Source of the DNA: Leeuwenhoekiella aequorea
GTDB lineage: Bacteria; Bacteroidota; Bacteroidia; Flavobacteriales; Flavobacteriaceae
Length of the DNA stretch: 64,000 bases
Reading direction: 5' to 3'
Assembly: GCF_004104375.1 (NCBI RefSeq)
Contig: NZ_QOVM01000002.1
Span: 186,001 to 250,000, forward strand
Below the pieces are notes generated by a model that saw only the letters and a program-made list of their open reading frames with translations, made no database searches and was not told where the DNA came from. Position numbers and translations under genes: made by a program. Positions 45,101 through 54,144 of the stretch are shown piece after piece (the stretch's first letter is position 1; each line of letters begins with the position of its first letter).

Positions 45101-45714
45101 TATGCTTTTTTCATTCGTATGGGATGCGCTTTATACGCTTTGCGTTTACTTTCGGCAAGCATTTTGGCTTTAGAAACCCAGTGATCATTAAGAATTCGAT
45201 CTGGAAAAAATTGAATAAGTTCTGTAACGATTTCGATATCCCTTGAATTGAATTTGCTTATTTGATCAAAGGTAAAAATGCCAATATCATTTAATTTTTC
45301 TTCAGTATAAGGTCCTATACCTGTAATTTTTTGAAGATTATCAGCATCGCTTTCATCTGCATGACCCAGTCGGTCAAAATCAAGTTGACCATCCTTAACT
45401 GTCGATTGTGGATATGATTTAGCTCTTCTTCTTGGAGGTTTAGCTAGATTCTTAAGAGTAGCTACTTTCTTGTAAGGCTCGTCATTTACTTCTTCAATGA
45501 GTTCGTTATGTATTTGATCTTCTTCCGTACCGGTTAAGTCTAATAATTTCTGAAGCTTATTCATCTTCTTTAAGTACTTTGATTTCTGATAATAGAAAGC
45601 AAAAAAGTAACCTATCAAAAATGACGCTAGCATTAAAAAGAAAACCTCAATGTAAATCAAAGGAATTGATATCATATCTGAATTTTTCTGTATGTAAATT
45701 AAATAAGGTATCAT
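45100..45714 (-). CDS. Membrane-anchored helix-hairpin-helix protein
   Basis: The protein has 204 residues. One N-terminal helix (IPLIYIEVFFLMLASFLIGYFFAFYY, about 16-42) is followed by a charged linker with basic segment PPRRRAKSYP. The C-terminal domain (about 125-190: DADNLQKITGIGPYTEEKLNDIGIFTFDQIS, then IVTELIQFFPDRI and WVSKAKML) is a helix-hairpin-helix unit of the type predicted in 5' nuclease-like or L21-like proteins. It might tether DNA or nucleic acid at the membrane; function is unknown. Its start overlaps the OmpA-like gene's stop by 4 bp, so the two are coupled. Confidence 0.8.
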   Translation of the reverse strand: MIPYLIYIQKNSDMISIPLIYIEVFFLMLASFLIGYFFAFYYQKSKYLKKMNKLQKLLDLTGTEEDQIHNELIEEVNDEPYKKVATLKNLAKPPRRRAKSYPQSTVKDGQLDFDRLGHADESDADNLQKITGIGPYTEEKLNDIGIFTFDQISKFNSRDIEIVTELIQFFPDRILNDHWVSKAKMLAESKRKAYKAHPIRMKKA

Positions 45715-46421
45715 TCGATTACAACTTCTATTCTGTTATTCTTCTTTCTTTCAGATTCATTTGTATTTAAAACAATAGGATCACTTTCACCTTTGGAATA
45801 CGCAAAAATTTGATTTTCAGGCAATTTTAGGCGTACTAAGATATAATTTCTTACTTGAACGGCCTCTTTATAAGCTACTTTATAGTTGTCAATTTCACTT
45901 CCTACATAATCTGTGTATCCTATGACTTTTACTTTTGCCTTAGGTTTTTTCTCTAACCTTAACTTTATATAATCTAGAAAATCTTGAGACGATAAATTAT
46001 CTACAACTCTTCCGCCTATGGAGAATTCTGGATAAAATGTATAATCCACCCGACGCGAATTAGTAGATTTATTATTAATCCCAGATTGAAGCTGAGCTTC
46101 TCTCAAACGTTCCTTATCTTTTTCTAAAGCTTGTGTATTAGATTCAATATTTTTTGTGAGCGTTTCAATTAACTGTTCATTACTGCGACTTAAATTATTA
46201 TCAACAAACGAATTTATATTTGAATCTTCTAACCCTTTATTGGAAAGGGTGTTTAAAGAATCATCATCATTTAGATTTATTCCCGTACCGGCCAATTCGG
46301 TTGCAGGCGCATAGGAGCTAAAAATACTTTTTCTATTTAAAGCATCGCTTGCATTTAAAAAATAGAGACCAATGGCACTCCATCCTAAAAACACTAAAAA
46401 AGCTATCGAAAAATTTTTCAT
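45711..46421 (-). CDS. OmpA-C domain protein (peptidoglycan-binding)
   Basis: The protein has 236 residues. An N-terminal signal anchor (FSIAFLVFLGWSAIGLYFL) is followed by a low-complexity and coiled-coil segment (about 80-115), then an OmpA-C domain (about 125-236). The domain shows FYPEFSIGGRVVDNLSSQDFLDYI, KVKVIGYTDYVGSEIDNYKVAYKEAVQVRNYIL with the conserved Asp, and SERKKNNRIEVVI at the end with the conserved Arg. It probably anchors the inner membrane or envelope to peptidoglycan. It is the first gene of a pair with the HhH protein, divergent from the his leader region. Confidence 0.88.
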   Translation of the reverse strand: MKNFSIAFLVFLGWSAIGLYFLNASDALNRKSIFSSYAPATELAGTGINLNDDDSLNTLSNKGLEDSNINSFVDNNLSRSNEQLIETLTKNIESNTQALEKDKERLREAQLQSGINNKSTNSRRVDYTFYPEFSIGGRVVDNLSSQDFLDYIKLRLEKKPKAKVKVIGYTDYVGSEIDNYKVAYKEAVQVRNYILVRLKLPENQIFAYSKGESDPIVLNTNESERKKNNRIEVVIE

Positions 46422-46459
46422 ACCCTACTTTTAATCAAAAATAACACTTTAACTTAAAT

Positions 46460-46487
46460 AATATACTTTACATCTAAAAAGTATATT
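46460..46487. promoter_or_regulatory. Perfect 10-bp palindrome, possible operator
   Basis: AATATACTTT (46460-46469) and its complement AAAGTATATT (46478-46487) surround an 8-nt spacer. It lies in the intergenic region between the divergent OmpA-like gene and hisL. It could be a regulator site, a weak hairpin, or chance in AT-rich DNA. Confidence 0.35.
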
Positions 46488-46534
46488 AATAGAAGCTCAC
46501 ATTCTATTATTTTTTTATAAATTCGCTTTCACAT

Positions 46535-46591
46535 ATGAAAAGAACAGCTTTACATCATCATCATTTTTATTCACGCACTCAAGCGAGGTAA
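46535..46591 (+). CDS. hisL: His operon leader peptide with four consecutive histidines
   Basis: The 18-residue ORF reads MKRTALHHHHFYSRTQAR, with four CAT codons in a row at 46553-46564. It lies 98 bp upstream of the hisG ATG. An 11-bp terminator hairpin and an alternative antiterminator pairing follow. This is the arrangement of the his attenuator of enterobacteria, whose leader has seven His codons. Translation would sense charged tRNA-His. The ORF is too short for ordinary gene finders. The start codon has no strong Shine-Dalgarno, which is normal in this phylum. Confidence 0.85.
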   Translation: MKRTALHHHHFYSRTQAR

Positions 46592-46638
46592 AAATGTTGT
46601 GTATAGCTAAATTATAAATAACAGTAACCCGTTTGAGT
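46577..46638 (+). promoter_or_regulatory. Antiterminator pairing of the his attenuator
   Basis: ACTCAAGCG(A)GGT at 46577-46589 can pair with ACCCGTTTGAGT at 46627-46638. It forms 12 base pairs with one bulged A and one G-U pair. The left arm is inside hisL just past the His codons and covers the first base of its stop. A ribosome paused on His codons would leave the left arm free, so the antiterminator forms. A ribosome reaching the stop would cover it. The right arm is the left arm of the terminator, so the two structures exclude each other. Confidence 0.75.
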
Positions 46639-46662
46639 CATTCAAACGGGTTTTCTGTTTTT
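46626..46662 (+). terminator. His attenuator terminator hairpin
   Basis: The stem AACCCGTTTGA (46626-46636) pairs perfectly with TCAAACGGGTT (46642-46652) around a 5-nt loop, followed by T-rich TTCTGTTTTT. It lies between hisL and hisG, so it would stop transcription before the operon. Confidence 0.88.
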
Positions 46663-46689
46663 GAATGGCTCAAGCCTAACAATCAAAAA

Positions 46690-47550
46690 ATGACAAAAAA
46701 AATTCGAATTGCTATTCAAAAATCTGGTAGACTGAATGAGGAATCGCTCCAAATTCTAAAAGATTGTGGTGTCTCTATCGACAATGGTCGTGACCAATTA
46801 AAAGCTAGTGCTGCAAACTTCCCACTTGAAGTGTTTTATTTACGTAATGGGGATATTCCGCAGTATTTACGGGATGGTGTAGTTGACATTGCTATTCTAG
46901 GTGAGAATGTGCTTGTTGAAAAAGGTGAAGATATTTCTATTGCTCAGAAATTAGGATTCTCAAAATGTCGTGTTTCGCTTGCAGTGCCAAAGGGAACAAA
47001 ATATGAATCTGTAAAAGATTTTGAAGGAAAGAAAATTGCAACTTCATATCCCAATACTGTAATAAATTATCTGGAACAGTACGGAGTAAAGGCAGATTTA
47101 CACATTATTAACGGTTCCGTAGAAATAGCTCCAAACATTGGTCTTGCTGATGCGATTTGTGATATTGTTTCCAGCGGAAGCACCCTTTTTAAAAATAATT
47201 TAAAAGAAGTTGAAGTAATGCTGAAGTCTGAAGCGGTACTTGCAGTTTCTTCAAAAATAGACCTGGAACGTCAGGAAATTTTAGATAAACTCCTTTTTAG
47301 ATTTAAAGCTGTATTAAAAGGAAGAGATTATAAATATGTTCTTTTAAATGCTCCTAACGATCGTCTTGATGATATTATTAAGATGTTGCCGGGTATGAAA
47401 AGCCCTACGGTTCTTCCGCTTGCAGAAGAAGGCTGGAGCAGTGTACACTCTGTAATAGATAAGCAAGCATTTTGGGAAGTTATAGATAACCTTAAAGATG
47501 CTGGTGCACAAGGGATATTAGTTAGTGATATTGAAAAAATGGTACTTTAG
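46690..47550 (+). CDS. hisG: ATP phosphoribosyltransferase (long form)
   Basis: First step of histidine synthesis. From the ATG at 46690 it has 286 residues, the long, self-contained form that carries its own C-terminal regulatory domain (about 210-286) and so does not need HisZ. Motifs are IAIQKSGRLNEES, PLEVFYLRNGDIPQYLRDGVVDIAILGENVL and the PRPP-binding NGSVEIAPNIGLADAICDIVSSGSTL. Long-form HisG is feedback-inhibited by histidine at the C-terminal domain. An in-frame TTG at 46633 is rejected because it lies inside the terminator stem. Confidence 0.95.
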   Translation: MTKKIRIAIQKSGRLNEESLQILKDCGVSIDNGRDQLKASAANFPLEVFYLRNGDIPQYLRDGVVDIAILGENVLVEKGEDISIAQKLGFSKCRVSLAVPKGTKYESVKDFEGKKIATSYPNTVINYLEQYGVKADLHIINGSVEIAPNIGLADAICDIVSSGSTLFKNNLKEVEVMLKSEAVLAVSSKIDLERQEILDKLLFRFKAVLKGRDYKYVLLNAPNDRLDDIIKMLPGMKSPTVLPLAEEGWSSVHSVIDKQAFWEVIDNLKDAGAQGILVSDIEKMVL

Positions 47551-47573
47551 CTATCGCATTTAATTGAGGTATT

Positions 47574-48872
47574 ATGATCAAAATAGACAACCCAGATCGT
47601 TCTTCGTGGGATGAACTTTTAAAAAGACCTACGCAGACTTATGCACAAATTGAAGGCACCGTACTTGAAGTTTTTAAAGAAATACAAGCTAAAGGTGATG
47701 ATGCTGTAAATTTTTATACTCAGAAGTTCGACGGAATTCAATTAAAAAAAATACAGGTTTCAGATTCTGAAATTAACTTAGCAAATGATCGAGTAAATCT
47801 GGATCTTAAAAATGCTATAAAGCTTGCTAAGCAGAATATAGAAAAATTTCACAAAGCTCAAGTAACATCACCTATTTATGTTGAGACTAGTGAAGGTGTG
47901 AATTGCTGGCAAGAAAAGAGACCTATTCAAAAAGTAGGATTGTATATTCCCGGAGGCACAGCCCCGCTATTTTCTACGATTCTTATGCTTGCAATTCCTG
48001 CTAAAATTGCGGGATGCAAGGAAATTATATTATGCACTCCTCCAGATAAAAATGGAAATATCAATCCGGCAATTTTATTTACAGCTGCCTTATGCGGTAT
48101 AGATAAAATTTTTAAAGTAGGAGGTATTCAAGCTATAGGTGCAATGACTTTTGGTACAGAAACTATTTCTAAAGTTTACAAAATATTTGGTCCCGGAAAT
48201 CAATTTGTAACGGTCGCTAAACAAATGGCTACAAAATACAATGTAAGTATAGATATGCCTGCAGGACCATCAGAATTATTAGTTGTAGCAGATGATACAG
48301 CAGAACCCTCTTTTGTTGCCTCAGATCTTTTAAGTCAGGCAGAGCACGGCGCAGATAGCCAGGTAATTCTGGTTTCTACTTCAAAAGAATTAATTTATTC
48401 GGTAGAACGTGAAATAGAATCGCAATTAGCCGTGCTACCTCGGAAAAAATTAGCAGAACAAGCAATTGCCAACAGCAAACTCATTTTTGTCGAAGATCAC
48501 AAAACTGCATTGGAGTTAATTGATGAATATGGTCCTGAGCATTTTATTGTTGCTACAAATGACAATGATTATTATGTAGAAAATATAGCTAACGCAGGTT
48601 CCGTTTTTATTGGGAATTATACTCCTGAATCTGCAGGAGACTACGCCTCCGGAACAAATCATACCTTGCCTACAAATGGATATGCGAAGCAGTATAGCGG
48701 AGTGAACCTCGACAGTTTTATGAAAAGTATGACTTTTCAAGAATTAACTCCTCAAGGTATCCAAAATATAGGTACCCAAATTGAACTTATGGCTGTGGCA
48801 GAAGGATTACAAGCACACAAAAATGCAGTAACCTTACGTCTTAACAAATTAAAACAAAATCCGAATGCATAA
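47574..48872 (+). CDS. hisD: Histidinol dehydrogenase
   Basis: Catalyses the last two steps, histidinol to histidine, with NAD and zinc. It has 432 residues, normal length. Signature stretches are VGLYIPGGTAPLFSTILMLAIPAKIAGCKEI, GGIQAIGAMTFGT, KIFGPGNQFVTVAKQ, DMPAGPSELLVVAD, LLSQAEHGADSQVILVS (metal His) and YGPEHFIVATN (catalytic Glu-His). The end overlaps hisC by 8 bp. Confidence 0.97.
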   Translation: MIKIDNPDRSSWDELLKRPTQTYAQIEGTVLEVFKEIQAKGDDAVNFYTQKFDGIQLKKIQVSDSEINLANDRVNLDLKNAIKLAKQNIEKFHKAQVTSPIYVETSEGVNCWQEKRPIQKVGLYIPGGTAPLFSTILMLAIPAKIAGCKEIILCTPPDKNGNINPAILFTAALCGIDKIFKVGGIQAIGAMTFGTETISKVYKIFGPGNQFVTVAKQMATKYNVSIDMPAGPSELLVVADDTAEPSFVASDLLSQAEHGADSQVILVSTSKELIYSVEREIESQLAVLPRKKLAEQAIANSKLIFVEDHKTALELIDEYGPEHFIVATNDNDYYVENIANAGSVFIGNYTPESAGDYASGTNHTLPTNGYAKQYSGVNLDSFMKSMTFQELTPQGIQNIGTQIELMAVAEGLQAHKNAVTLRLNKLKQNPNA

Positions 48873-49917
48873 TCAAACATTCTACTTAGAAAAATTGGTT
48901 CGTGATAACGTGGCTAAGCTTAAGCCTTATTCCTCTGCACGAGATGAGTTTAAAGATTTTCACGAGGATATGGTATTTTTAGATGCCAACGAAAATCCTT
49001 ATAATACCGGTGTTAATAGATATCCAGATCCACAGCAAGTTACTTTAAAACAACATTTATCATCTGTAAAACGCGTTCCTGTAGATCAGATTTTATTAGG
49101 TAATGGTAGTGATGAAGTTCTTGATTTGTTGTTTAGAGCCTTCTGCGAACCTAATGTAGATAATGTGGTTACACTTCCACCTACTTATGGTATGTATGCT
49201 GTTCTTGCTGCTACTAATGCTATTGCTAATAGAGAAGTTTTATTATCTAAAGATTTTCAGCCAGATGTAAATTCTATTCTGGATCAGGTAGATCATCAAA
49301 CGAAAATGATTTTCTTATGCTCACCAAACAATCCAACTGCGAATAGTTTTGAAGCAGCGTCTATAACCTATTTGCTGGAAAATTTTAAAGGTTTAGTGGT
49401 TGTTGATGAAGCCTATATTGATTTTTCGGCTGCGGAAAGTTGGTCTACTCAATTACATAATTATCCTAATCTTGTAATTATTCAAACCTTGTCTAAAGCA
49501 TATGGTTTAGCAGGAATACGATTGGGAATTTGTTATGCTTCCGCTGAAATAATAGGTGTACTTAATAAAATTAAGCCTCCTTATAATGTAAATGAATTAA
49601 CGCAGAAACGAGCTCTTGAACGTATTCTTAATTATGAATCAGTAGCAAGTGAGATTAATTCAATATTAAAGCAAAGAGATGCTTTATCTAAAGTTTTACT
49701 TGAAGTGAATTATGTAAATAAAGTTTATCCTTCAGAAGCCAACTTTATTTTGGCTCGGGTTGATGATGCTAATAAAAGATACAATCAATTACTTGAGAAA
49801 GGAATCGTAGTGCGTAATAGAAGTAGTCAAGCTTTATGTGAGAATACATTGCGATTTACTGTAGGGACAACTGAGGAAAATGAAAAACTAATTGCAGTTT
49901 TAAAAGAGCTGGCATAA
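48865..49917 (+). CDS. hisC: Histidinol-phosphate aminotransferase
   Basis: PLP-dependent transamination of imidazole-acetol phosphate. It has 350 residues, normal length. Motifs are FLDANENPYN, ILLGNGSDEVLDLLFRAFCEP, VVDEAYIDFSA, the PLP lysine in TLSKAYGLAGIRLGICYAS, and VRNRSSQALCENTLRFTVGT. It starts within the last codons of hisD and is followed by hisB after 9 bp, so coupling is likely along the operon. Confidence 0.96.
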   Translation: MHNQTFYLEKLVRDNVAKLKPYSSARDEFKDFHEDMVFLDANENPYNTGVNRYPDPQQVTLKQHLSSVKRVPVDQILLGNGSDEVLDLLFRAFCEPNVDNVVTLPPTYGMYAVLAATNAIANREVLLSKDFQPDVNSILDQVDHQTKMIFLCSPNNPTANSFEAASITYLLENFKGLVVVDEAYIDFSAAESWSTQLHNYPNLVIIQTLSKAYGLAGIRLGICYASAEIIGVLNKIKPPYNVNELTQKRALERILNYESVASEINSILKQRDALSKVLLEVNYVNKVYPSEANFILARVDDANKRYNQLLEKGIVVRNRSSQALCENTLRFTVGTTEENEKLIAVLKELA

Positions 49918-49926
49918 ACGTATTTA

Positions 49927-51084
49927 ATGAAATCTAATCAAAATAATATAGGTCGAAAAGTGCTTTTTATAGATCGGGACGGTACCTTGATTAAAGAAAC
50001 TGTCGACGAGCAAATAGACGCATTTGAGAAAATGATATTTTATCCTAAAGCATTTACATATATGAGTAAAATTGCACAGGAACTCGATTATGAATTGGTA
50101 ATGATTACAAATCAAGACGGTTTGGGTACAGATTCGTTTCCAGAAGATACCTTCTGGCCAGTGCATAATTTTATAATGAAATCTTTTGAGAATGAAGGTG
50201 TTGTTTTTGATGCTGTTTATCTAGATCGCACATTTCCTCATGAAAATGCAGTTACTCGTAAACCAGGGACCGGTTTACTTACCAGCTACTTCTCTGATAA
50301 ATATGATCTTGAAAACAGCTATGTAATAGGAGATCGCCTTACCGACATTGAGTTGGCAAAAAATTTAGGTGCTAAGGGAATTTTTATAAATGACAATACC
50401 GAGTTAGGTACTGGTGAAACTACAGTAGATCGAAGCGAGCTAGATTCTATAATTGCTTTAGAAAGCAATGACTGGCAAAAAATATATGAATTTTTAAAGC
50501 TGGAGGCACGCACTGCATCTATAGTAAGGAAAACTAATGAAACCGACATTAAAATTGAACTTAATCTAGATGGGACCGGTAAGAGTGATATAAAAACAGG
50601 GTTAGCTTTTTTTGATCATATGCTCGATCAATTAGCGAGGCACGGTTCTATGGATCTCAATATATATGTCAACGGGGATCTTGAGGTAGATGAACATCAC
50701 ACGATAGAAGATACGGCTATTGCGTTAGGTGAAGTTTTTGCAATGGCTTTAGGCAATAAATTAGGAATAGAGCGCTATGGTTTTTGCTTGCCTATGGATG
50801 ACTGTCTGGCGCAGGTTGCTATAGATTTTGGAGGTCGTAATTGGTTAGTATGGGAAGCAGATTTTAAACGTGAGAAAATAGGAGAAATGCCTACAGAAAT
50901 GTTTTACCATTTCTTTAAATCATTTACAGATGGTGCTCGTGCAAATCTTAATATTAAAGCTGAAGGTGTAAATGAGCATCATAAAATAGAAGCGATTTTT
51001 AAGGCTTTTGCTAAAGCGATAAAGGTAGCAGTGAAGCGAGATTCAGAAAAAATGATACTGCCTAGTACTAAGGGGATGCTATAA
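49927..51084 (+). CDS. hisB: Bifunctional histidinol-phosphatase / imidazoleglycerol-phosphate dehydratase
   Basis: The protein has 385 residues. The N-terminal HAD phosphatase (about 1-165) has nucleophile/acid pair Asp16/Asp18 in [25 protein letters not shown] and [17 protein letters not shown]. The C-terminal IGP dehydratase (about 195-385) shows [28 protein letters not shown] and [16 protein letters not shown]. The HAD half lacks the Cys residues that bind zinc in E. coli (there CPH...CDC); here the loop reads [16 protein letters not shown]. The fusion order is the same as in E. coli. Confidence 0.95.
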
Positions 51085-51119
51085 AATTTTAGCTATACCA
51101 AGATGATAAAAAGAATACA

Positions 51120-51701
51120 ATGAAATTAGTTATTATTAATTACGGAGCAGGTAATATACAGAGTATAAAATTTGCTTTTAAACGGCTGGGCGTTGATGCA
51201 GTTTTATCTGATGATGCTGAAGAGATTAAAGCTGCTGATAAAGTGATATTTCCGGGAGTAGGAGAGGCTAGTAGCGCTATGGCAAAATTGCGAGATACCG
51301 GTCTAGATAAACTTATTCCGACTTTAACGCAACCGGTTTTAGGTATTTGTCTGGGTATGCAGTTAATGTGTAAGCATTCAACTGAAGGAGATACTACAGG
51401 CTTAGGAATATTTGATGTATCTGTTACGAAATTTTCTAACAGCGTTAAAGTTCCGCAAATAGGTTGGAATGAAGTATCAAATTTAAATAGTCCATTATTT
51501 GAGGGAATTCCTGAGAATTCGCATATGTATCTGGTACATAGTTTTTATGCTCCTAAATGTGAGGAGTTGATAGCAGAAACAATGTATGATGTGAAGTATG
51601 CTTCGGCTTTACAAAAAGACAATTTTTATGGCGTTCAATTTCACCCAGAAAAATCAGGATTAGTTGGTGAACAGGTTTTGAAGAATTTCCTACAAATGTA
51701 A
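51120..51701 (+). CDS. hisH: Imidazole glycerol phosphate synthase, glutaminase subunit
   Basis: The glutamine amidotransferase partner of HisF has 193 residues. Motifs are INYGAGNIQSIKFAFKRLG, PGVGEASSAM, the nucleophile in VLGICLGMQLMCKHS, VPQIGWNEV and the His-Glu of FYGVQFHPEKSG. It delivers ammonia to HisF for the ring-closing step. A 270-bp gap follows before hisA. Confidence 0.95.
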   Translation: MKLVIINYGAGNIQSIKFAFKRLGVDAVLSDDAEEIKAADKVIFPGVGEASSAMAKLRDTGLDKLIPTLTQPVLGICLGMQLMCKHSTEGDTTGLGIFDVSVTKFSNSVKVPQIGWNEVSNLNSPLFEGIPENSHMYLVHSFYAPKCEELIAETMYDVKYASALQKDNFYGVQFHPEKSGLVGEQVLKNFLQM

Positions 51702-51971
51702 ATCGGTGAAACGAACTTAAAAAGTAGTAGACGACTTAAAAGTTAGAACAAACCCTTTTAAATTGACTGTTGGAATCTCTGTTCTAATCTTTTTAAACCA
51801 GAATATATAAAATGGGTGTTTTGTTTTAATGAATCTTACTTTTGGTTAGAATTTTACAAGAAGCTTCAGAATTATTTATAATTACTGTAGACTCAATCAA
51901 TACAATGATGAAAACTAAATAGGAAAACTAGTAAAATCGAATTTCGTTTTTTTTAATTTTTACTTTATACA
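51702..51971 (+). other. Non-coding gap inside the his operon with a possible hairpin
   Basis: No credible ORF is found; only short fragments occur (six or fewer codons). An 8-bp inverted repeat (TTAGAACA at 51743-51750 and TGTTCTAA at 51780-51787) is followed by a TCTTTTT tract and could be an internal terminator or processing site. The rest is AT-rich with no promoter I can assert. Confidence 0.5.
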
Positions 51972-52694
51972 ATGAGAATAATTCCGGCAATTGATATTAT
52001 AGATGGTAAGTGTGTACGACTATCTAAAGGCGATTACAATACCAAAAAAATCTATAATGAAAATCCGTTAGAGGTGGCTAAGCAGTTTGAAGCACACGGT
52101 ATTCAATATTTGCATCTCGTAGACCTTGACGGGGCAAAAAGCAAACACATTGTAAATCATCATATACTTGAGCAAATTGCGACCCATACTAAGTTAAAAA
52201 TTGATTTTGGAGGCGGTTTAAAAACCGATGATGACTTACGTATTGCATTTGAGAGTGGCGCACAGCAGATTACAGGTGGTAGTATAGCTGTGAAAGATCG
52301 GGAGACCTTCATCAATTGGCTCTCAAAATTTGGTAGTGATAAGATTATTCTTGGTGCAGATGCGATGAATGAAAAAGTTGCAGTAAGCGGATGGTTAGAA
52401 GAGTCTAAAGAAGAATTAATACCATTTATAAAAGGGTATCAAAAAGAAGGAATTTCCTATGTTATTTGCACAGATATAAGTAAAGATGGTATGCTTGAAG
52501 GACCTTCTTTTGATTTATATAAGCGTATTTTAGAAGAAACTGAAAATTTAAAACTTATCGCCTCAGGTGGGATTTCTGAATTTGACGAACTGCCGAAACT
52601 TGCCGAAATGGGTTGTGAAGGAACCATCATAGGTAAAGCTATATATGAGGGTAGAATATCTATGAAACAACTGGAATCATTTATTCTCGGTTAA
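51972..52694 (+). CDS. hisA: ProFAR isomerase
   Basis: Amadori isomerisation step of histidine synthesis. It has 240 residues, the normal (beta/alpha)8 length. Key features are [20 protein letters not shown] with the first catalytic Asp near residue 8, [29 protein letters not shown], the second catalytic Asp in [15 protein letters not shown] and [12 protein letters not shown]. HisA and HisF come from one ancestor by duplication, visible in the two half-barrel phosphate sites. Confidence 0.96.
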
Positions 52695-52748
52695 TAGTAC
52701 ATACTGAAAAAATAAAATTTCGCTTTCGCGGAATACTAAAAAAGAAGA

Positions 52749-53504
52749 ATGCTTACAAAACGAATAATACCTTGTTTAGATATTAAAAATGGAAGAACTG
52801 TTAAAGGTGTAAATTTTATTGATTTACGCGATGCAGGGGATCCGGTCGAACTTGCAGCAAAATATGCTGAAACCGGTGCAGACGAATTGGTTTTTCTTGA
52901 TATTTCGGCAACAGAAGAACGTCGTAAAACTTTAGCAGATTTGGTTTTGCGTGTTGCTGAGAAAATTAATATTCCCTTTACAGTAGGTGGTGGTATATCT
53001 TCTGTAGAGGATGTAGATATTCTACTTCAAAACGGGGCAGATAAAGTTTCTATTAACTCTTCCGCAGTTAAAAATCCGAAGTTAATCAATGAGCTTGCTG
53101 CAAAGTTTGGTTCGCAATGTGTTGTTGTTGCAATTGATGCAAAGCAGATAAATGGTAAGTGGACAGTACATCTGGTAGGTGGTAAAGTGCCAACAGATTT
53201 AGATCTTTTTGAGTGGGCACAAGAAGTTGAATCTCGCGGTGCCGGGGAAATTCTATTCACCTCAATGGATCATGATGGCACAAAAGCAGGTTTCGCAGAT
53301 GAGGCACTTGCACGATTGAGTGAATTATTAAATATACCGGTTATTGCATCTGGCGGAGCGGGAACTATGCAGCATTTTACAGATACTTTTACCAGCGGTA
53401 AGGCTGATGCAGCATTAGCAGCGAGTGTATTTCATTTTCACGAAATTGATATTCCACTATTAAAATTAGAATTAAAAAGTAAAAATATACCTATTCGATT
53501 GTAA
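52749..53504 (+). CDS. hisF: Imidazole glycerol phosphate synthase, cyclase subunit
   Basis: It has 251 residues. Motifs are [19 protein letters not shown] with the catalytic Asp (about 11), [28 protein letters not shown] and the second catalytic Asp in [13 protein letters not shown], with [10 protein letters not shown] for phosphate binding. Works with HisH to make IGP and AICAR. It is 54 bp downstream of hisA. Confidence 0.97.
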
Positions 53505-53550
53505 ATTCTTAGGAAATACCATGCGATTAATAGGACAAAATTAAAAGAGA

Positions 53551-54144
53551 ATGAAAATTACATATGACGAGAAAGGTCTCGTTCCTGCTATAATTCAAGA
53601 TGCTAAAACGAAAACCGTTTTAATGTTAGGTTATATGAACGAGGAAGCATATCTCAAAACTAATGAGACAAAAAAAGTTACATTTTATAGTCGTAGTAAA
53701 CAACGTTTATGGACAAAAGGAGAGGAAAGTGGAAACTTTTTAAACCTTGTATCCATAAAAAATGATTGTGACAGTGATTCCTTACTTATAGCAGTAAATC
53801 CTCAAGGACCAACGTGCCATAAAGGGACAGATAATTGCTGGGGAGATACTAATACACAAGATTTTGGTTTTTTTAGCGACTTAGAAACTACAATAGCCGA
53901 TAGACAAGCTAATCAAGAAAATGAGAAGAGTTATGTGGCAGATTTGTTCCGAAAAGGAATAAATAAAATTGCACAAAAAGTAGGAGAGGAAGCTGTTGAA
54001 GTCGTAATTGAAGCTAAGGATGAAAACGATGATTTGTTCTTAAATGAAAGTGCAGATTTGCTTTTTCATTATTTAATACTTCTTAAGGCAAAAGGTTTTG
54101 GTCTTCAAGATATTGAGCAAGTTTTAATAAACCGGAAAAAATAA
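53551..54144 (+). CDS. hisIE: Bifunctional phosphoribosyl-AMP cyclohydrolase / phosphoribosyl-ATP pyrophosphohydrolase
   Basis: The 197-residue fusion holds HisI at about 1-110 (VLMLGYMNEEAYLKTNETKKVTFYSRSKQRLWTKGEESG and the metal-binding DCDSDSLLI, GPTCHKGTDNCW cysteines) and HisE at about 115-195 (YVADLFRKGINKIAQKVGEEAVEVVIEAKDEN and ADLLFHYLILLKAKG). Steps two and three of the pathway. It is the last gene of the operon and a bidirectional terminator follows at once. Confidence 0.96.
   Translation: MKITYDEKGLVPAIIQDAKTKTVLMLGYMNEEAYLKTNETKKVTFYSRSKQRLWTKGEESGNFLNLVSIKNDCDSDSLLIAVNPQGPTCHKGTDNCWGDTNTQDFGFFSDLETTIADRQANQENEKSYVADLFRKGINKIAQKVGEEAVEVVIEAKDENDDLFLNESADLLFHYLILLKAKGFGLQDIEQVLINRKK

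Follow-up and report, generated by a model that had tools for sequence, protein, structure and literature searches.

The his attenuator of enterobacteria is built from six arms, and its leader peptide carries seven His in a row. His attenuators were found in 17 Firmicutes genomes in 2022, with His-codon leaders (three to five in a row) and with attenuator, terminator and antiterminator helices upstream (PMC9413887); the word 'Bacteroidetes' does not occur in the main text of that study. A trp leader of the Bacteroidetes is on record as Bacteroid-trp (RF01692; in Rfam, the Bacteroidete tryptophan peptide leader; PMC2864571). For Flavobacterium psychrophilum, leader-peptide attenuation was proposed in 2021 before amino-acid operons, and a structured 5' element of hisG was reported that is conserved in further genera of the Flavobacteriaceae and has no Rfam hit (PMC9723704). 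The first-pass annotation of the DNA analysed here had called such control rarely described in the phylum, which is right in part and has to be qualified by the trp leader and the F. psychrophilum element. The mechanism is classical and of a known kind, and it has hardly been dissected in this group so far; among the literature matches listed, we found no paper that dissects a Bacteroidetes his leader. Lopatovskaya 2010 (Mol Biol 44:128) may already list Bacteroidetes his leaders. Canestrari 2020 is said to describe leaderless polycysteine attenuators of mycobacteria, which also place regulatory codons in a leaderless short ORF, there for cysteine.

The locus described here lies in Leeuwenhoekiella aequorea (Flavobacteriaceae), in a window of 64,000 nucleotides (contig NZ_QOVM01000002.1, positions 186,001 to 250,000), by which we mean the whole stretch of DNA that was analysed and whose numbering is used throughout. 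On its + strand, 46690-54144 holds hisG, D, C, B, H, A, F and IE, eight genes confirmed by NCBIfam. The HisG protein shares 91-92% identity with those of three named species of Leeuwenhoekiella and 90% with that of a metagenome-assembled Leeuwenhoekiella, and a genome with a HisG match of 92% identity is assigned to the same genus. In front of hisG, we find what is very probably a ribosome-mediated transcription attenuator of the operon. It shares with the enterobacterial his attenuator (RF00514) a His-codon leader peptide, an intrinsic terminator before hisG and an alternative antiterminator, but it has three hairpins in trp-like order and a promoter box that abuts the leader ATG. The Firmicutes attenuators (PMC9413887) likewise combine His-codon leaders with three such helices, and Bacteroid-trp, from the same phylum, also has a leader ORF and a terminator, with Trp codons there and His codons here. 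The F. psychrophilum hisG 5' element (PMC9723704) and the present leader are very probably the same element. What is new is the reach across the class, the modelled 1-2-3-4 anatomy and a predicted near-leaderless start. The features, with the evidence for each, are as follows.

46518..46525, + strand: predicted -7 box TAAATTCG, one mismatch to the consensus TAnnTTTG (sequence; spacing in relatives)
46535..46591, + strand: leader ORF of 18 codons plus TAA (46589-46591), peptide MKRTALHHHHFYSRTQAR (direct reading; conservation in relatives)
46553..46564, + strand: four His codons (CAT x4), predicted ribosome stall site (sequence; codon-by-codon conservation)
46562..46596, + strand: hairpin 1:2 (46562-46576 with 46583-46596), putative anti-antiterminator or pause hairpin (folds; covariation counts)
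46577..46589, + strand: arm 2, the left antiterminator arm ACTCAAGCGAGGT (sequence; fold; pairing in relatives)
46595..46623, + strand: inner stem (46595-46606 with 46612-46623) in the antiterminator loop, extending the antiterminator (fold only)
46627..46638, + strand: arm 3 ACCCGTTTGAGT, common to antiterminator and terminator (sequence; fold; pairing in relatives)
46626..46662, + strand: hairpin 3:4, intrinsic terminator (46626-46636 with 46642-46652) and T-rich tail (sequence; pairing)
46690..47550, + strand: hisG, ATG at 46690, first gene of the controlled operon (ORF list; NCBIfam)

The nearest gene of at least 100 aa upstream of the leader (45711-46421) lies on the - strand and is divergent from the his operon, so that the terminator is unlikely to be part of an upstream + strand gene and should act on transcripts entering from the his promoter. 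Between this gene and hisG follow the box TAAATTCG, the leader ORF with its four CAT codons, the terminator and the T-rich tail. A His-rich short ORF thus stands upstream of the first gene with an intrinsic terminator between the two, inside the his transcript and 37 nt 5' of the hisG ATG. The terminator reads AACCCGTTTGA/gtcat/TCAAACGGGTT (46626-46652, 11 bp), followed by TTCTGTTTTT. The alternative 2:3 helix joins 46577-46589 to 46627-46638 through 12 pairs with one bulged A and one G-U, and its arm 2 overlaps the final leader codons plus the first base of the stop codon. The leader ORF, the CAT run, the terminator and the alternative pairing had all been placed by the first-pass annotation, and every coordinate holds on direct reading, including the start of arm 2 at 12 nt past the last His codon. 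To these 2:3 and 3:4 helices our analysis adds the -7 box and hairpin 1:2, which begins within the last His codon and buries half of arm 2. With 1:2 and 3:4 together as the modelled off state and 2:3 as the on state, the textbook three-helix design would be complete. The folding energy of RNA 46535-46665 is -38.6 kcal/mol, where shuffles average -19.5 (z -5.7); for RNA 46577-46640 it is -20.3 kcal/mol, where they average -7.5 (z -5.4). None of 200 shuffles was as stable in either case, so the folds are not due to chance.

From this anatomy, its conservation, the covariation of hairpin 1:2 and the mutual exclusion of helices in folding models, we infer stalling, termination, read-through, a start site and a response to histidine as follows. 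Transcription would begin only a few bases 5' of the leader AUG, with a ribosome loading at or very near the 5' end. When charged tRNA-His is scarce, the ribosome would stall on the CAT run and cover arm 1, leaving arm 2 free to pair with the emerging arm 3; the terminator would then not form, and hisG-hisIE would be transcribed. With ample histidine, the ribosome would reach the stop codon and cover arm 2, arm 3 would pair with arm 4, and transcription would end near 46660. Once the ribosome has gone, hairpin 1:2 would sequester arm 2 and the switch would stay off.

Relatives were collected at two distances. The close set joins the best 80 of 450 loci from named genomes with the best 30 of 251 from a HisG search that matched in 251 of 299 family genomes; it comprises 110 loci, 98 of them distinct. 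The class search covered 256 genomes, 113 with hisG, of which 9 belong to the window's family and 104 lie outside it; the 600 nt upstream of hisG were read in all 104, in a first set of 80 and a last set of 24. Covariation was counted in an alignment (A1) of 56 of the 98 distinct close loci, hand-picked for diversity.

A short ORF with a His run stands upstream of hisG in 110/110 close loci (best 80 of 450, best 30 of 251), mostly with three or four His per leader (77/95 close leaders). In the 56 aligned sequences, codons 7-10 keep His while switching between CAT and CAC, with one exception each at codons 7, 8 and 10. Synonymous change with the residue kept is also seen at codons 16 (Q) and 17 (A); their bases belong to arm 2, where CAA and CAG both pair, and the whole terminal QAR is spelled by arm 2 bases. 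At most codons outside the His run and QAR, amino-acid changes outnumber synonymous ones, although codons 3, 11 and 13 favour one residue (N in 39/56, F in 43/56 and T in 37/56). As read from these sequences, what is kept is the His run, the start, the stop and the arm 2 bases, not the whole peptide, and selection on the regulatory codons exceeds that on the rest of the peptide.

This pattern bears on the idea that the ORF encodes a functional small peptide, for example a metal-binding one, with the hairpins incidental. His-rich peptides can bind metal, such a peptide is encoded in all 110 close loci (best 80 of 450 plus best 30 of 251), and the residues favoured at codons 3, 11 and 13 would fit. 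The free variation elsewhere and the coincidence of QAR with arm 2 speak against it, as does the fact that across families only the His run and its place before a terminator are kept, in a leader search that covered the region in front of hisG. A family covariance model built with the 1:2 and 3:4 helices points the same way. It matched at E <= 0.01 in 265/299 family genomes, some of the weakest matches probably being chance, and when 30 of the 31 best were checked against the HisG places, all 30 ended 0-146 nt before hisG. We regard a functional peptide as extremely unlikely. One family genome (G027) has a match at E 6.2e-13 although the HisG search found no hisG there; a leader without hisG and a missed or broken hisG are candidate readings.

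The three helices are supported to different degrees. Hairpin 1:2 is paired in 84.7% of cells of A1 (56 sequences), against 34-54% for slid versions, and contains 29 double-change cells, where shuffles average 9.4 and slid controls give 2-18, with U-A to C-G exchanges at five pairs. Two further counts are not clearly above the controls: double changes affect 6 pairs (a value reached by 77/500 shuffles and by some slid versions), and there are 19 pair types (reached by 24/500 shuffles, with up to 21 in slid versions). The 3:4 terminator is paired in 616/616 cells with two double changes. The 2:3 helix is paired in 95.1% of cells (22-55% in slid controls) and has no double change in the 56 close-relative sequences, its arms being frozen, since arm 3 serves two helices and arm 2 serves two helices plus coding; it is therefore supported by pairing and not by covariation. 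RNAalifold on the whole alignment recovered only the terminator, and 1:2 was counted after being named. The comparison of relatives proposed in the first-pass annotation hence gave His codons kept across CAT-to-CAC changes, covariation that is clear in 1:2, slight in the terminator and absent in 2:3, and a leader, terminator and arm 2 that are all conserved; the lack of conservation that would have refuted the attenuator was not observed.

The near-frozen state of arms 2, 3 and 4 in close relatives, beyond what pairing needs, is also what a binding site would show, and the hairpins could in principle form a protein- or ligand-binding attenuator (a riboswitch, a T-box or a target of an RNA-binding protein) that overlaps the ORF by chance. 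Such an attenuator leaves the conserved His codons unexplained, the three exclusive helices and the codons already constrain the arm bases, and the arm sequences differ in other families. No Rfam family reaches its gathering threshold in this stretch; the T-box models match neither at that threshold nor up to E 10, and the 12 Rfam matches up to E 10 include no T-box or riboswitch. Taken together, a bound ligand or protein is very unlikely to be the agent. As for the known leaders, the proteobacterial His_leader (RF00514) had no match up to E 10 over 46430-46720 and none at gathering score, and the RF01692 model does not match the his leader. The best sub-threshold Rfam match, L10_leader (E 0.069, 23.1 bits, gathering 44), lies 3' of the terminator and an A/U-rich spacer; we discounted it as a chance match.

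The switch of a ribosome-mediated attenuator was modelled by barring bases -15 to +17 of the P site from pairing, at the point where arm 3 has emerged but arm 4 has not. A ribosome on the first His codon left arm 3 in the antiterminator in 95/95 close leaders and in 58/63 leaders of other families; for a ribosome on the last His codon the counts were 83/95 and 52/63, and for one at the stop codon 4/95 and 12/63. The full switch, with the antiterminator formed at the first His and not at the stop, was present in 91/95 close and 47/63 other leaders, against 91/285 and 56/189 controls in which the stretch between His run and terminator was shuffled. In the last set of 24 it was found in 5/9, bringing the total outside the family to 52/72. 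In these models the antiterminator excludes the terminator and ribosome position gates the choice, which reproduces the earlier proposal that a stall on His codons frees arm 2 and a ribosome at the stop masks it.

Timing would be essential to such a switch. When the full-length leader is folded with a ribosome placed on the first His codon, the terminator is favoured over the antiterminator in 90/95 close leaders, the window being an exception in which the antiterminator persists. Since the finished RNA thus prefers the terminator, the antiterminator has to prevail by folding earlier. With no ribosome at the decision point, arm 3 pairs upstream in 60/95 close leaders, in 22/63 others and in the window, which makes basal termination without translation uncertain.

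Outside the family, a short ORF with a His cluster precedes hisG in 86/104 loci (70/80 in the first set, 16/24 in the last); in the first 80, dinucleotide shuffles gave 27/1600 and the reverse strand 1/80. The leader pattern was HHH, HH.H or H.HH and missed L122 (HHRTH) and perhaps L260 (MHQFHHAS), so that 86 is a floor. In family f42, the 600 nt upstream of hisG contained no His leader (0/5: L261, L262, L264, L268 and L270); other coding sequence seems to reach hisG there, and hisG may therefore not be the first gene of its operon. Five leaders in families f3, f16 and f48 (L140, L150, L158, L169, L182) end in HH-Ser-Ser-stop, with last codons TCCTCC or TCCTCT facing GAGGA or GGAGGA just past the stop; a small hairpin at the stop with a Shine-Dalgarno-like 3' arm, and so a different design, is possible.

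A terminator-like hairpin with a T run lies before hisG in 72/86 class leaders against 38/430 shuffles, and a hairpin below -12 kcal/mol in 68/86 against 3/430. The stems come in several unrelated sequences (CCCGTTTGA, GGCTTACC, CCCGCC, CCACGC, CCCCATCGG, CCTACCTG, CCCTGACC and others). No terminator was detected in 14/86 class leaders, belonging to families f39 (9/9), f16 (3), f3 (1) and f44 (1). Such leaders lend some weight to the view that leader translation controls hisG through translational coupling or Rho, with the terminator of the window a minor part. Against this, a terminator with a T tract stands 3' of the leader in the window and in 95/95 distinct close leaders scanned, and for the window we consider control by coupling or Rho improbable. 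The nine f39 loci (L186, L188, L189, L190, L263, L265, L266, L267 and L269) have His-rich leaders close to hisG, and regulation in this family may work at the level of translation or by way of Rho.

Arm pairing was assessed in the 63 loci of the first 80 that have both leader and terminator. Arm 2 pairs with its own arm 3 at p <= 0.05 in 40/63 and at p <= 0.01 in 21/63 (mononucleotide shuffles). When arms were swapped between families, the cognate pairing fell in the best 5% for 14/63 and in the best 10% for 21/63, a weak contrast that is due in part to many families sharing a GGCTTACC-like arm. The onset of arm 2 has a median of 12 nt after the last His codon both in the close set and in other families (first 80), with a 10-90% spread of 0-13 nt and 3-17 nt, respectively; 12 nt is the edge of the ribosome model when the last His codon occupies the A site.

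Promoters were sought as the TAnnTTTG box, which lies at -12 to -5 in F. psychrophilum (PMC9723704). In the window, TAAATTCG ends 9 nt before the leader ATG, and from the sequence the transcript is predicted to start at about 46530, with a 5' UTR of about 5 nt. Allowing one mismatch at most, 95/98 distinct close loci have a box that ends 6-10 nt 5' of the leader ATG, compared with 8.9% of shuffles; 34/98 have the full consensus there, compared with 0.5%. For the best-scoring box, the distance to the leader ATG is 7 nt in 63/98 distinct close loci and 8 nt in 20/98, a spacing that predicts a 5' UTR of 3-4 nt in most of them. The box TAAATTCG is common to 5/6 leaders that come from Leeuwenhoekiella-titled genomes or are the window itself. 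In other families (first 80 loci), a full box lies within 26 nt of the ATG in 49/70 leaders against 2.5% of shuffles; its gap is 4-14 nt in 26 of the 49 and 16-26 nt in 23, and the latter indicate that very short spacing is not universal. Leaderless mRNAs make up only 5.5% in F. psychrophilum (PMC9723704), and in Bacteroides thetaiotaomicron only about 3.7% of 5' UTRs are shorter than 10 nt (PMC7366714). A sigma-70 promoter scan found 36 matches where 39.9 were expected; it is uninformative for the phylum, and the TAnnTTTG box was used instead. Within the operon, the 270-nt gap between hisH and hisA (window 51702-51971) contains a TTTACA-18-TATAAT match (11/12) at 51853-51882, which is a possible internal start, such matches being at chance level overall.

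The same genome holds two further leaders, their hairpins read by eye. The trpE gene is preceded by the leader MKNKALNIWWWISQQ, a terminator-like hairpin AGGCCTGTC..GACAGGCCT and a T run (L237 1298-1417, G000:C8), with a -7 box 8 nt before the ATG and an RF01692 match of 54.7 bits (gathering 49). A pheA-type leader MLNVPYFYSRYYFFFFIRETGPL (L197, G000:C1) lies about 190 nt upstream of a PF00800 match and has its box 22 nt before the ATG; it is accompanied by the terminator-like hairpin TCCCGATTT..AAATCGGGA and a T run. For ilvB no leader was seen; the gene closely follows an upstream gene in this genome.

It is quite possible, though we would stop short of calling it probable, that the system is widespread in the class Bacteroidia, as His and Trp attenuators with leader ORFs starting essentially at the transcript 5' end. 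If this were true, ribosome loading would be tied to the 5' end and not to internal sites, so that every transcript would be caught by a ribosome on leaving the polymerase. It would also solve how translation is coupled to attenuation where ribosomes hardly use Shine-Dalgarno sites.

The leaders found at 86/104 loci outside the family suggest that translation-coupled attenuation of histidine synthesis is the common arrangement among hisG-bearing Bacteroidia, with unrelated sequences apparently doing the same attenuator job across the class. Such an arrangement would imply tight coupling of transcription and translation in a group whose promoters are unusual and which makes little use of Shine-Dalgarno sites, and for which the leader may offer a compact natural reporter of both coupling and 5'-end initiation.
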